DNA from: a virus
Length of the DNA: 33,561 bases
Virus record (IMG/VR): IMGVR_UViG_3300009155_003165
Location: 1-33,561 of that record
Direction: 5' to 3' (one strand)
The notes under the pieces were generated by a model that saw only the letters and a program-made list of their open reading frames with translations, had not been told where the DNA came from and ran no database searches. Shown here in pieces: positions 1 to 5,713 of the stretch. The position numbers were made by a program, and so were the translations under genes. Every line of letters begins with the position of its first letter. Positions within the stretch are counted from its first letter, which is position 1.

Positions 1-96
1 CAAGTCGAGAGCCAAGTCGAGCGCCAAGTCTGGCGCCAAGTCGAGAGCCAAGTCAGGAGCCAAGTCGAGAGCCAAGTCGAGAGCCAAGTCAGTCTA
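1..96 (+). repeat. Tandem 12-bp coding repeat (CAAGTCGAGAGC consensus), 8 units
   Basis: Eight contiguous 12-base units starting at 1, 13, 25, 37, 49, 61, 73 and 85 all begin CAAGTC. Four are exactly CAAGTCGAGAGC and the others differ in the last six bases. Each unit encodes one Gln-Val-x-x tetrapeptide. Because the unit is a multiple of three, gain or loss of units changes repeat length without shifting the frame. The array continues off the left edge. Confidence 0.95.
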
Positions 97-1237: not shown

Positions 1238-1414
1238 ATGACGGCCCCAGCACGATTCCGCGAGGCCGACATCAAGCGAGCCGCGTCTGGCGTCCTCCGC
1301 GCTGGCATCCCGATCCAGCGGATAGAGATAGACCACAACGGCAAGATCGTCATTATCCCGGGCCAGCCAACCACGGCCACGGAATCGGACGAATGGGCAG
1401 ACCTCGAACGGTGA
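1238..1414 (+). CDS. 58-aa protein upstream of and overlapping the integrase
   Basis: ATG at 1238, TGA at 1412-1414. The protein starts MTAPARFREADIKRAASG, continues with a short 'AGIPIQRIEIDHNGKIVII' type strand segment and ends EWADLER. The pattern (helix with 'RF.eADi.Ra..g', then 'v.ri.id..GkivI') is one I associate with small proteins encoded directly before integrases in sphingomonad-type prophages. Its role is not established; a recombination-directionality or DNA-binding accessory role is a guess. It overlaps the integrase start by 22 bases in another frame, so translation is likely coupled. Confidence 0.7.
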   Translation: MTAPARFREADIKRAASGVLRAGIPIQRIEIDHNGKIVIIPGQPTTATESDEWADLER

Positions 1415-2475
1415 ACACATCGCTTCCCCAATATGCGAGCGCCTACCGCGACCGCCACGGCAAGCAGCGTATTCGCTTGCGCCGCACCGGATGGCCGACG
1501 CTACAGGTTCATGCCGCGCCGGGGACGACCGAGTTCACCGAGATCTATCACCGATGGCTGGAAAGCGGGCGCAAGCAAATCGCCGCAGACAGGCCAGCGC
1601 CGGGCACGTTTGATGACCTGATCGCCCGTTTCTACCGATCAAAGGCGTGGGCCGACATCAAGGAAACGACCCGCTACACCTATCGCGGCGAACTTGAACG
1701 GTTCCGCGCCAAGTATGGCAGCAGATCGGCCAGCACCATGACCGCGCGCCATGTGGCGAATCTGGTCAACCAAATGGCCGGCACCCCGAGCGCCGCGAAC
1801 AATCTTCGCAAGAGGCTGGGGCAGTTGTTCCGCCTCGCGATCGAACTAGGCTGGCGCACCGACAACCCGGCCAAGAGCGTTGCAGGGCTGCGTATCCGGT
1901 CCAAGGGCTTCGCCACATGGCAAGAGGAGCAGATTGCGCAGTTTGAGGCGCACTGGCCTGTAGGGACCGTCCAGAGGCTTGCGTTCGACCTTGCGCTCTA
2001 CACAGCCCAGCGCCGCAGCGACGTGCGCGTGATGGGGCCACAGCACGTAACAGCCGGTTCGATTCGCGTCCGCCAGCTGAAGACCGACAAGGAACTGGTG
2101 ATCCCCATGCACCCGCGCCTGATCGAAAGCATCTTGGCGACCAAGACCGGACACCTGGCATTCGTGACCAGCGCGAAGGGCGCGCCGTTCAGCACCAAGT
2201 CGTTCGGCATGTGGTTCACCAAGCAGTGCAGGGCAGCGGGACTCGTTGGCTATTCCATGCACGGCCTGCGGAAAGCAGCATCGCGGCGCATGGCAGAGGC
2301 AGGGCTTACCAATCAGGAGATCAAGGCCATCACCGGCCATGTGACCGACAGCGAGGTTGCCCGGTACACCCGCGAAGCCGAGCAAGTGACCATCGCCAAG
2401 CGCGCGATGAAGGTGATGAGCTTGGCGCACAACCCCGAAAATTCCACTTCACAAGAGCGGAATTCCACTGTATAG
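1393..2475 (+). CDS. int: Tyrosine recombinase / phage integrase
   Basis: 360 aa, the usual size. The N-terminal ~56 residues (MGRPRTVNTSLPQYASAY... ending near Y52) form a small basic domain, probably the arm-site-binding part. A core-binding domain runs over roughly 70-165 and the catalytic domain over 175-335. The catalytic set is complete: R207 (TAQRRSD), K230 (LKTDKEL), H290 and R293 (HGLRK), H316 (TGHVTD) and nucleophile Y325 (ARYTREA). It would catalyse site-specific insertion and excision of the phage at an att site. It lies inside a run of same-strand accessory genes rather than at the edge of the module. The last codons overlap a 21-bp direct repeat. Confidence 0.95.
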   Translation: MGRPRTVNTSLPQYASAYRDRHGKQRIRLRRTGWPTLQVHAAPGTTEFTEIYHRWLESGRKQIAADRPAPGTFDDLIARFYRSKAWADIKETTRYTYRGELERFRAKYGSRSASTMTARHVANLVNQMAGTPSAANNLRKRLGQLFRLAIELGWRTDNPAKSVAGLRIRSKGFATWQEEQIAQFEAHWPVGTVQRLAFDLALYTAQRRSDVRVMGPQHVTAGSIRVRQLKTDKELVIPMHPRLIESILATKTGHLAFVTSAKGAPFSTKSFGMWFTKQCRAAGLVGYSMHGLRKAASRRMAEAGLTNQEIKAITGHVTDSEVARYTREAEQVTIAKRAMKVMSLAHNPENSTSQERNSTV

Positions 2476-2481
2476 GAGCGG
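2440..2481 (+). repeat. 21-bp imperfect tandem repeat at the integrase 3' end
   Basis: Bases 2440-2460 and 2461-2481 are head-to-tail copies that match at 17 of 21 positions: both begin AATTCCACT and end GAGCGG, with differences only in the six middle bases. A third AAT begins at 2482. The repeat spans the integrase stop codon and supplies the ribosome-binding site of the next gene. Position beside int makes an arm-type integrase site or part of attP possible, but nothing here proves it. Confidence 0.7.
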
Positions 2482-2482
2482 A

Positions 2483-2620
2483 ATGCAATGGAAAGATTTT
2501 CTTGAGCCTCAAGAGGCGGAACGATTGGCGGAACTGGATCGGCAGCGCGCTAGCCTGACCAAAGAATATCGGCGCATTTACGACAGATGCCGCAAGCGTA
2601 TGGAGAAAGCCCGTGGGTAG
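2483..2620 (+). CDS. 45-aa charged helical protein between integrase and GIY-YIG gene
   Basis: ATG at 2483 with AGGAG at 2474-2478, stop TAG at 2618-2620. Sequence starts MQWKDFLEPQEAERLAELD and ends KRMEKARG; it is highly charged and predicted helical by eye, resembling a short coiled coil. The stop overlaps the GTG start of the next gene by 8 bases. Function unknown. The strong ribosome-binding site and the overlap support it as a real gene. Confidence 0.65.
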   Translation: MQWKDFLEPQEAERLAELDRQRASLTKEYRRIYDRCRKRMEKARG

Positions 2621-3188
2621 GCCAAAGGCTGTCAGGCAAGATTTGCCGCCGTACGTTTCAGCTTACGTTGATCGGCATGGGCGTGAGCGGTATCGGTTCC
2701 GTCGAGCGGGTGTAGGCACAATCCAGATTAGGCACATGCCGGGGACGCCTCATTTTGAGCAACAGTATCAGGAACTTTTGCGCCTAGAAGCGAAGGTCGA
2801 AAAGCCATCAAATGAGATTGCGCTTTTACAGGCCATGATTGCGCAAGTGTCCGCGCTGCGCACTCCCCGCCTGCATTCATTCGTGTATGCAATCGGTGAG
2901 GCGGTAGATGAAACTGCGCCGATTAAGATTGGCTTTGCGACTGATCCGCTGGCGAGGCTCTATGCACTTCAAACCGGCAACCCGCTCCGATTGACCATAA
3001 TCGGTTTGCGCGCCGGAACGCGAAACACTGAGCGCGATATCCATAGGCGGCTGTCTGGCGCCCGCATGGTTGGCGAATGGTTCGAGCGCGAAGCTGTTTG
3101 CCGTATGATGAAAACGCGTGGCTTTTGGCTCACCCGGTCGGCTTTCGCCTTGGCTAACTTTCCGCAAGGCATTGAAAATGAAACATGA
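2613..3188 (+). CDS. GIY-YIG-type nuclease (T5orf172/MUG113-like) fused to an integrase-like N-terminal domain
   Basis: 191 aa, GTG start at 2613. Residues 1-56 match the integrase N-terminus without gaps at 28 of 56 positions, including MGRP, SAY, DRHG, the RxRxR-R run and PGT. Residues ~60-85 are a linker helix. Residues 88-160 carry the marks of the GIY-YIG relatives T5orf172/MUG113: VYAIG (91-95), KIG (105-107), DPLARLYALQTGNP (111-124), E140, H144 and GEWF (154-157). The family cleaves DNA or is nuclease-like; activity here is inferred. The shared N-terminus suggests it binds the same arm-type sequences as the integrase. An alternative is a homing-type nuclease that captured the domain. 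Confidence 0.85.
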   Translation: MGRPKAVRQDLPPYVSAYVDRHGRERYRFRRAGVGTIQIRHMPGTPHFEQQYQELLRLEAKVEKPSNEIALLQAMIAQVSALRTPRLHSFVYAIGEAVDETAPIKIGFATDPLARLYALQTGNPLRLTIIGLRAGTRNTERDIHRRLSGARMVGEWFEREAVCRMMKTRGFWLTRSAFALANFPQGIENET

Positions 3189-3384
3189 AAAAAAGATAGT
3201 GGCGCGCCCTGCAGGGGTGTATGTTGCCAATTCCCGCAGCGGCTTAGTTTGGCGCACCGGCCACAGACGGGCAACGCGATTCCGGGCATCCTGCGGCAGT
3301 TTGGCTAACCCAAACGGGCCGATGCAGCGCGCCAACGCTGACACCGGCCCTCACCACCACGCGAAGGAACCGCGCAATGGCTGA
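3178..3384 (+). CDS. 68-aa basic protein, unknown function
   Basis: ATG at 3178 overlaps the end of the GIY-YIG gene by 11 bases, and the TGA at 3382-3384 overlaps the next gene by 8. The protein begins MKHEKKIVARPAGVYVANS, is rich in Arg and His, and ends AKEPRNG. The C-terminal residues are read from the next gene's ribosome-binding site and start, exactly as at three later junctions in this operon, which is the main reason to accept it. If it is not translated, 3189-3376 is a 188-bp gap and would be a candidate for attP or regulatory DNA. Confidence 0.5.
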   Translation: MKHEKKIVARPAGVYVANSRSGLVWRTGHRRATRFRASCGSLANPNGPMQRANADTGPHHHAKEPRNG

Positions 3385-4157: not shown

Positions 4158-4317
4158 CAAGTATCCCGGCACCTGCTACCGCTGCGGCAATACCGTGGAG
4201 GCGGGCGCAGGGCACTTTGAGCGCCACAATGGCGGATGGCGGACGCAGCACGCAGGTTGCGCCATTTGGAACCGCCGCAAGGCAACACCGACCGAAAGGA
4301 ACCGCAATGCCGACTGA
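4150..4317 (+). CDS. 55-aa zinc-ribbon-like mini-protein
   Basis: ATG at 4150 inside the end of the previous gene. A CxxC pair (C9, C12 in GTCYRCGNTV) is followed by H34 and C37 (QHAGCA), giving a C2HC zinc-ribbon-like pattern, with a glycine/histidine-rich turn between. The last residues, ERNRNAD, are encoded by the next gene's ribosome-binding site and start. Mini-proteins of this type are frequent in phage accessory regions; a nucleic-acid-binding role is possible but not shown. Confidence 0.65.
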   Translation: MRNKYPGTCYRCGNTVEAGAGHFERHNGGWRTQHAGCAIWNRRKATPTERNRNAD

Positions 4318-4828
4318 CCTGACGCCGCTTGAGGCCGAAAGCCTTGTGTACGACCATCTAGGAGGACCAGGCACCATGACTGAGACACCGCTGGAGCTTA
4401 TCGACGAGCAATGGACAGGCTCAAAGCGGCAGCGCGAGACGCTTCAGCAGAAGTACGATGGCAAATGCGCGTACTGCGGTGGTGATCTAGGCAAGGCAAT
4501 GCACGCCGATCATTTGCAGCCTGTCGTTCGCATCATTCGCGACCACATGGGGAAACCGCTTCCGGCCTCGGAATGCTACTACGTCAAGCCGGAGCGGAAC
4601 GTGGTCAGCAACATGATGCCCGCCTGCGCGTCCTGCAATCTGCACAAGGGCGGTTACAGCCTTGAAGGCTGGCGGGACATTATCCAACGCTCAGCCGCGA
4701 TTTGCCGCCGCGATACGTCCACATTCAAGGTCGGTGAGCGCTTCGGGATCATCTCAGTCAACGAACAGCCGGTGCAGTTTTATTTTGAGACTCTCGCCAA
4801 AGCAAAGGACCGCACCAATGCCGACTGA
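4307..4828 (+). CDS. HNH endonuclease
   Basis: 173 aa from ATG 4307, or 150 aa from ATG 4376, which has a strong AGGAGG at 4360-4365. Residues 50-113 are a zinc-stabilised HNH fold: CAYC (C54, C57), the core HADH (66-69), then ACASC (C106, C109) with NLHK (110-113). The start at 4307 shares MPTDLTPLE with the next gene, through a duplicated junction. HNH nucleases cut DNA as homing enzymes, packaging helpers or host-takeover nucleases. This one lies far from the terminase genes, so a packaging role is less likely and a mobile or accessory role more likely. Ends AKDRTNAD, overlapping the next gene. Confidence 0.88.
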   Translation: MPTDLTPLEAESLVYDHLGGPGTMTETPLELIDEQWTGSKRQRETLQQKYDGKCAYCGGDLGKAMHADHLQPVVRIIRDHMGKPLPASECYYVKPERNVVSNMMPACASCNLHKGGYSLEGWRDIIQRSAAICRRDTSTFKVGERFGIISVNEQPVQFYFETLAKAKDRTNAD

Positions 4829-5001: not shown

Positions 5002-5006
5002 GATAA
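4818..5006 (+). CDS. 62-aa hypothetical protein with internal LVAG repeat
   Basis: ATG at 4818 with AAAGGA upstream. Begins MPTDLTPLERELCEALENA, a helical stretch, followed by a short internal duplication (ALVAGET, then LVAGDV), visible at the DNA level as two GCTGGTCGCTGGCGA copies near 4917-4950. Ends KAKDRTNG. No family recognised. The first nine residues equal those of the HNH gene, pointing to recombination at the junction sequence. Confidence 0.65.
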   Translation: MPTDLTPLERELCEALENAIALIAHKMPPKETALVAGETLVAGDVWRAGVEVIRKAKDRTNG

Positions 5007-5342: not shown

Positions 5343-5713
5343 CCCAACCAACCGAAGCAGACATCCGGGCTGCGTGTGAAGAGGCGGGGCTTAAGGACGA
5401 CTGGACAGCATTTGTGCAGGCCAACCCCGGAACGACATCGGCGCTTGTTCTCCTCGCCCTCGCCCGCCGCATCGCTGCCGAGCGAGAGGCTGTGACGATG
5501 GCTTGGGAGCCATTGCACCTTGCACCGCGAGACGGAACGCAGGTTCTGCTTTGGTGCCATCCCCAAGATTGCGAACCGTTCGTAATTCAAGGCTGGTACG
5601 AAAGCGGGGCGTTTGACTCGTGCTGGTATGAAGCATTCCATGAGACCCGGTTGCAGTTCAGGCCAACAGCTTGGCAACCACTCCCCCCACAACCCAAGGA
5701 GCCGACGACATGA
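5339..5713 (+). CDS. DUF551-like accessory protein
   Basis: 124 aa from ATG 5339, with AAAGGA 8 bases upstream. Residues 1-52 are helical (ADIRAACEEAGL, ALVLLALARRIAAERE). The second half follows the DUF551 layout from memory: a start of W-x-P-x-x-x-A-P-x-D-G (WEPLHLAPRDGTQVLLW), a middle GWYESG with aromatic residues, and a closing P-T-x-W-x-P-L-P-x-x-P (PTAWQPLPPQP). DUF551 is common in phage accessory regions and has no known function. The stop overlaps the next ATG. Confidence 0.75.
   Translation: MTQPTEADIRAACEEAGLKDDWTAFVQANPGTTSALVLLALARRIAAEREAVTMAWEPLHLAPRDGTQVLLWCHPQDCEPFVIQGWYESGAFDSCWYEAFHETRLQFRPTAWQPLPPQPKEPTT

Follow-up and report, generated by a model that had tools for sequence, protein, structure and literature searches.

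The integrase, the nuclease and their shared domain

The viral record IMGVR_UViG_3300009155_003165, whose 33,561 bases make up the window analyzed here and supply all of its coordinates, carries an intact tyrosine integrase gene of the lambda Int type (1393..2475, 360 amino acids), a gene with a GTG start for a chimeric nuclease of 191 amino acids (2613..3188), and the core of the phage attachment site attP (3199..3215). The genes and sites of the window described below all lie on the plus strand. The integrase assignment rests on conserved columns, an AlphaFold2 model and a profile comparison, and that of the nuclease on Pfam matches, alignment to the integrase and an AlphaFold2 model. Nested between the integrase gene and the attP core, 2613..3188 may encode an endonuclease directed at the arms of attP, a chimera of the integrase arm-binding domain and a MUG113/T5orf172 nuclease; we put the chance that this reading is right at about even. 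The two genes are 137 bp apart, and an open reading frame (ORF) of 45 amino acids (2483..2620, MQWKDFLEPQ...), with no family match in Pfam or NCBIfam, lies between them and extends across the nuclease start. Around the integrase/nuclease locus, scans for promoters and terminators returned nothing exceeding shuffles.

The N-termini of integrase and nuclease align without gaps over 56 residues with 28 identities, and the local BLOSUM62 score of this shared domain, here called IntN, is 148 (mean 24 and maximum 48 in 2000 shuffles). The sequence-only reading, made before this analysis from the letters of the window, had pointed to this sharing and had described the rest of the nuclease as T5orf172/MUG113-like; both descriptions hold. 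IntN is encoded by 1393..1581 in the integrase (residues 1–63, predicted to form three strands and a helix) and by 2613..2783 in the nuclease (residues 1–57), which retains 18/18 residues invariant across six compared integrase N-termini. At the DNA level the shared stretch is 48% identical, with 52, 66 and 27% identity at codon positions 1, 2 and 3. Randomized third codon positions within a conserved protein sequence indicate an old similarity that was maintained at the protein level; the random-level identity at third positions also rules out that the integrase 5′ end was duplicated recently. Within the whole record IntN occurs on these two ORFs only, and no Pfam or NCBIfam family covers it.

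The integrase matches Pfam PF00589 (7.8e-18) and has all the residues of the lambda-type R-K-HxxR-H-Y set (R207, K230, H290, R293, H316 and Y325). Its profile aligns to lambda Int with an E value of 3e-26 (residues 64–327 on lambda Int 69–346), and the best PDB match of its AlphaFold2 model is lambda Int itself (1z1b, E 3.4e-16, 347 columns). By these profile and fold alignments to full-length lambda Int, the first 63 residues occupy the position of the lambda Int arm-binding domain. The N-terminal domain of lambda Int binds arm sites, and in the models of both window proteins the predicted order of IntN is strand-strand-strand-helix, the same as in that domain.

A profile search of all collected loci (given here by their L numbers) detected IntN on 71 integrase ORFs, on 6 integrases that are truncated and, as 6 redundant records, on 3 distinct GIY-YIG fusions. 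It found IntN on no other protein type in this collection, which is biased to integrases and GIY-YIG proteins and was gathered in part by scans baited with IntN peptides only; occurrence of the domain on unrelated proteins, which the sequence-only reading had named as evidence against itself, was thus not encountered among these loci. In the six truncated integrases the reading frame is interrupted by the end of a contig, a frameshift or an insertion element. Croceicoccus H107, considered as a non-integrase carrier of IntN, turned out to be an integrase truncated by a transposase. At L013 (4001–4408), the transposase of an insertion element, encoded on the opposite strand, truncates a Croceicoccus integrase of this family.

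The second part of the nuclease (residues about 88–160, 2874..3092) scores above the Pfam cut-offs for both MUG113 (5e-8, 33.9 bits, cut-off 22.3) and T5orf172 (5.8e-6, 27.2 bits, cut-off 20), as do the two further fusions found at L017 and L108, and this is the sole ORF of the record that matches a GIY-YIG profile. All three fusions share Y92, K105, R115 and E140 without variation; we take these residues to be catalytic, by assignment from known GIY-YIG enzymes that include Odn (E180, PMC8263062). Further residues of the GIY-YIG domain are H144 and GEWF154–157, and the putative active site appears to be intact. In the AlphaFold2 model (mean predicted local distance difference test score 83), residues 15–56 form strand-strand-strand-helix and residues 66–81 a helix, followed by a strand/helix nuclease domain. 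A PDB search with this model gave weak GIY-YIG (Slx1) matches only, sequence searches gave no PDB match for the nuclease, and PADLOC has no model for it.

The attachment site and the recurrence of the gene pair

The layout of attP can be read from relatives that have no nuclease. In a Caenibius plasmid (L012), phage Pan3 (L011), L004, L019 and L026 there are four direct repeats, either TTTGGCTAACC or variants of it. Their spacing is 24, 99–100 and 51–52 bp in these five loci, and 24–25, 99–100 and 51–53 bp once L181 is included; in several nuclease-less relatives the first two arms lie within the integrase 3′ end. When this four-arm spacing was searched for over the whole 33.5 kb on both strands, the best place was 3124/3149/3248/3300, with a score of 50 (elsewhere below 40). 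The corresponding arm-type sites are P1 (TTTGGCTCACC, 3124..3134), P2 (CTTGGCTAACT, 3149..3159), P′1 (TTTGGCGCACC, 3248..3258) and P′2 (TTTGGCTAACC, 3300..3310). Between the second and third repeats stands the core GTGGCGCGCCCTGCAGG (3199..3215), present once in the window. The L038 prophage, whose integrase is 89% identical to that of the window, has the identical sequence at its junction on the integrase side, located at the 3′ end of tRNA-Arg(TCT). The arm cassette at the relatives' spacing and the core matching the tRNA-Arg junction together locate attP, in which, as for a lambda-type integrase, direct arm-type repeats flank a core corresponding to the 3′ end of a tRNA. P1 and P2 of the window are inside the nuclease 3′ end and not inside the integrase gene, and the C-terminal tail of the nuclease is encoded across them.

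In all three fusion lineages a second P1 copy is retained at the ancestral position in the integrase 3′ end, and the insert is therefore bracketed by P1 copies. Counted from the tyrosine codon of the integrase, this left copy lies 50 bp downstream in L017 and the nuclease-less L034 and 42 bp downstream in L108 and the fusion-less L181. In the window it has decayed (AGCTTGGCGCACA, 2419..2431) and sits at the same place as the intact P1 of the nuclease-less L038. L026 and L027 have a 45-residue ORF between integrase and P1 and no nuclease; the 45-residue ORF of the window, which stands at the same place and is immediately preceded by a 21-bp tandem repeat (2440–2484), is homologous to it, and the window looks like the L026/L027 state with a nuclease gene of ~500 bp added. 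The P1–P2 spacing is 25 in carriers and 24 in nine of the ten non-carriers of the tRNA-Arg group; it is also 25 in L022 and L181. The bracketing by P1 copies and the resemblance to L026/L027 suggest that one and the same place has repeatedly received the gene, by insertion or by transfer. Neither domain gives a tree long enough to distinguish a single origin from multiple ones, and approximately unbiased tests did not reject a single fusion clade (p values of 0.49 and 0.64), nor did they prove one; a larger GIY tree that suggested separate origins omitted the L108 fusion and was not used.

Further integrase/GIY-YIG pairs with shared N-termini, a search for which the sequence-only reading had proposed, were found in two more lineages with the same layout. 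L017 is a viral contig whose integrase is 63% identical to that of the window and whose nuclease is 32% identical over its whole length; its arms (TTTGGCTAGCA) stand at 5488/5513/5612/5664, the first two within the nuclease 3′ end. L108 is a prophage end in a Sphingomonadales genome, in tRNA-Phe, where the integrase and fusion genes overlap by ATGA and the arms (TTGTCCAACC) at 5002/5027 fall within the nuclease 3′ end and are followed by tRNA-Phe. Each of the three fusions is directly 3′ of an integrase, which is mostly not so for the other collected GIY-YIG genes. Among 398 genomes sampled from the order of G386 and 398 from its family, G386 was the only one with a full-length fusion; published phages and plasmids yielded none, and no close relative turned up in viral or genome contigs when octapeptides of the nuclease alone were scanned for. 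The fusion is present in the window and L017 and absent at the same site from L003/L038, L004, L011, L012, L019, L022, L025, L026, L034 and L180. Judged from these loci the pair is conserved, although rare and patchy, so that the doubt attached to the sequence-only reading, that the pair might not be conserved, is not borne out.

Other GIY-YIG genes are found near integrases and attachment sites of this group. The GIY-YIG protein of L031 (4722–5366), encoded beside a tRNA-like core and a tyrosine integrase that is a different one, has an N-terminus (PGTPEFEESY) that is divergent and weakly IntN-like; it is possibly a more distant fourth case and was left out of the fusion count. GIY-YIG genes without IntN lie just past attP, on the side opposite the integrase gene, in L030 (4764–5339), L032 (6251–6622) and L181 (after ~3890), and just upstream of the integrase gene in Pam5 (L010) and L082. 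Such att-flanking genes seem recurrent in this integrase group. L138, whose GIY domain grouped with that of the window, was set aside, as it lies near a terminase-like gene and not an integrase.

Whether integrase and nuclease read the same DNA can be approached through the first hairpin of IntN. Nearly all IntN domains have DRHG there, and readable arms mostly end in ACC. DNRG occurs in three integrases only (L017, L034 and L180), all with TAGC arms, and in the L017 nuclease; the L017 arms have TAGC where the window has AACC. The Pan3 integrase has DAYG, with arms ending in AAGG or ATGC. That the L017 integrase and nuclease both carry DNRG and that the arms have changed fits one DNA target common to the two proteins, and this single event of covariation between hairpin and arm sequence is suggestive. 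In overall similarity, the L108 nuclease N-terminus has its own integrase at rank 1 of 56, and that of the window has its own at rank 8, with L003, an integrase that is an 89%-identical sister, at rank 1. L060, the nearest IntN relative of the L017 nuclease outside its own locus, has DRHG and TAAC arms. In L017 (4946–4977), two arm-like sites (GTTTGGCTAGC / GCTAGCCAAAC, 10 bp apart) form a perfect inverted pair that stands ~27 bp upstream of the nuclease start and could be an operator for autoregulation; the P arm of L032 has an inverted pair that resembles it.

Possible roles of the nuclease

The proposal of the sequence-only reading that the nuclease acts at the att sites of its integrase is well supported, though indirectly, by the arm-binding position of IntN, the nesting of the gene in attP, the recurrence of this arrangement and the DNRG covariation in L017. 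Of the functions that this reading had named, control of excision, cutting of competing attachment sites and superinfection exclusion, each may apply. Arm binding, cutting, target and biological effect, as we infer them, would follow this scheme. The nuclease would be expressed together with the integrase, its IntN domain would bind the arm-type repeats used by Int, and the tethered GIY-YIG domain would cut within or beside attP. The main targets would probably be the attP sites of nuclease-less related phages that co-infect or superinfect; as an outcome, the nuclease gene would spread into the junction of integrase gene and P1 in a homing-like manner, the competitor would lose its integration site, or both. 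Patchy presence and bracketing by P1 copies favor a role of this kind, homing-like or competitive, toward relatives whose arms are the same.

Several observations weigh against an arm-directed endonuclease. Its main difficulty is that the phage's own arms are intact: the nuclease-bearing attP keeps all four, and simple homing immunity through disruption of the site is not evident. The L017 nuclease N-terminus is closer overall to other integrases, with its own at rank 21 of 56, and the DNRG covariation is a single event involving 3 of ~63 integrases, with a chance of ~1 in 20. Trees of both domains lack resolution. The fusion is patchy, in 2 of ~13 lineages with integrases related at ≥50%, which fits a mobile gene and a dispensable one as well, and the evidence is sequence-based throughout.

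Intact own arms leave room for a regulatory role or for a distinction of self from rival by architecture. As a regulator of recombination, the protein would compete with Int or assist it at the arms, affecting directionality or the timing of excision, and the GIY-YIG domain would only nick or be structural. Such a regulator would use the same arms as Int, as location and covariation suggest, and a freely cutting nuclease should not tolerate these arms in its own genome; the gene is directly 3′ of the integrase gene, with the ATGA overlap in L108 and the 45-residue ORF between the genes in the window, and the inverted arm-like pair upstream of the L017 nuclease would be a possible operator. However, the putative catalytic residues are kept in every fusion, and relatives with 61–89% identical integrases have no nuclease and so manage recombination without it; we consider this role unlikely. 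Somewhat more doubtful to us is a domesticated weapon of the Odn kind, in which the arm domain was captured from the integrase of a competing element and serves to destroy attP or att of that element, not of close relatives. T5orf172 chimeras that have captured a DNA-binding domain provide a direct precedent (PMC8263062, PMC10448857), and the L017 nuclease N-terminus is most like the integrases of other elements, L060 among them; yet its DNRG matches the integrase and arms of its own phage and not the DRHG and TAAC of L060, the L108 nuclease most resembles the integrase of its own locus, and the nuclease genes are located in their own attP and not elsewhere. That the gene is an ordinary selfish free-standing nuclease, beside the integrase gene by chance and with an N-terminus recruited from nearby coding sequence without functional targeting, is in our judgment quite improbable. 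GIY-YIG genes without IntN do stand beside attP or the integrase gene in L010, L030, L032, L082 and L181, and T5orf172 genes are common as homing-type genes at recombination boundaries (PMC10448857). Against this, conservation of the IntN protein after saturation of silent sites, the full set of invariant residues and the same architecture in three lineages indicate selection on the DNA-binding module.

Beyond the arm-directed endonuclease as such, a more far-reaching version, to which we give little credence, is a class of attachment-site-directed nucleases for which the architecture of the site separates self from rival. Integration leaves the phage's own arms divided between the two ends of the prophage; an incoming relative has its four arms within ~190 bp in attP, and a nuclease needing several arms together would cut the incoming attP only. 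This would amount to att-specific superinfection exclusion, and in the three lineages an immunity gene derived from an integrase would have been invented, or transferred, more than once.

If an arm-directed endonuclease is indeed encoded here, phages have reused the recognition module of an integrase to aim a nuclease at attachment sites, which would suggest a route to competition between temperate phages with a common attB. Within the natural pair of Int and nuclease, the residue changes DRHG/DNRG/DAYG appear linked to changes in the arm sites, and the pair makes DNA recognition by the arm-binding domain, and the origin of nuclease specificity through domain capture, directly testable.

Neighboring features and known systems

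Immediately 5′ of the integrase gene lies a 58-residue ORF (1238–1414, MTAPARFREADIKRAASG...) with no family, homologs of which stand at the equivalent place in Pan3 (L011) and the Caenibius plasmid (L012); Pam5 (L010) has an ORF whose start resembles it. This ORF is a candidate directionality factor or regulator. About 1 kb past attP, an ORF for an HNH endonuclease (4307–4828, Pfam HNH 1.7e-5) provides a second nuclease near the attachment site. The window starts with 7.5 copies of a 12-bp repeat (CAAGTCGAGAGC, 1–90, plus strand), close behind which is a gene for a DUF6745 protein (151–765, Pfam 7.3e-23).

Literature searches did not find a report of an integrase/GIY-YIG (integrase/T5orf172) chimera, and three known systems can be compared with the locus. 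Lambda integrase resembles that of the window in fold, in having the shared domain at the arm-binding position and in its strand-strand-strand-helix order; unlike the lambda case, IntN is without an entry in Pfam or NCBIfam and is detached from the recombinase where it occurs on the window nuclease. Free-standing GIY-YIG/T5orf172 homing endonucleases of phages are of the same family as the window nuclease, are sporadic in presence and insert beside a presumed recognition site. The window nuclease is likewise patchy at one site among close relatives, with P1 copies on both sides of the insert; unlike theirs, its DNA-binding part is an integrase domain and not a known homing-nuclease module, and arm sites stay intact beside the inserted gene, which leaves self-immunity unexplained.

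The third system is Odn (Gp88) of phage ICP1, a RepA_N–T5orf172 chimera that cuts the RepA-bound replication origin of a satellite and whose N-terminal domain is common with the satellite's RepA, at 42% identity (PMC8263062). Coliphages Inny, Muut and Mt1B1_P17 have genes like odn; homing-type genes of the T5orf172/MUG113 kind are widespread, those of T5orf172 being common at recombination boundaries (PMC10448857). Odn and the window nuclease are each encoded by a small single gene, with the DNA-binding domain of a recognition protein at the N-terminus and a T5orf172 GIY-YIG domain, from a homing-endonuclease family, at the C-terminus; the DNA-binding domain fused to T5orf172 is in both cases shared with the recognition protein of a mobile element. 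In contrast to Odn, the shared domain of the window nuclease is the integrase arm-binding domain, for which reason the predicted target is attP and not a replication origin. Its gene also lies next to that of its integrase and within the attP of the same phage, with the presumed target in cis; Odn-type nucleases act on a target that belongs to another element, whereas the arm sites here are in the encoding genome, and the window nuclease is therefore described as working like Odn and not classed as Odn. Should the arm-directed reading be correct, the principle of Odn, a captured DNA-binding domain joined to T5orf172, would extend from replication origins to integration.
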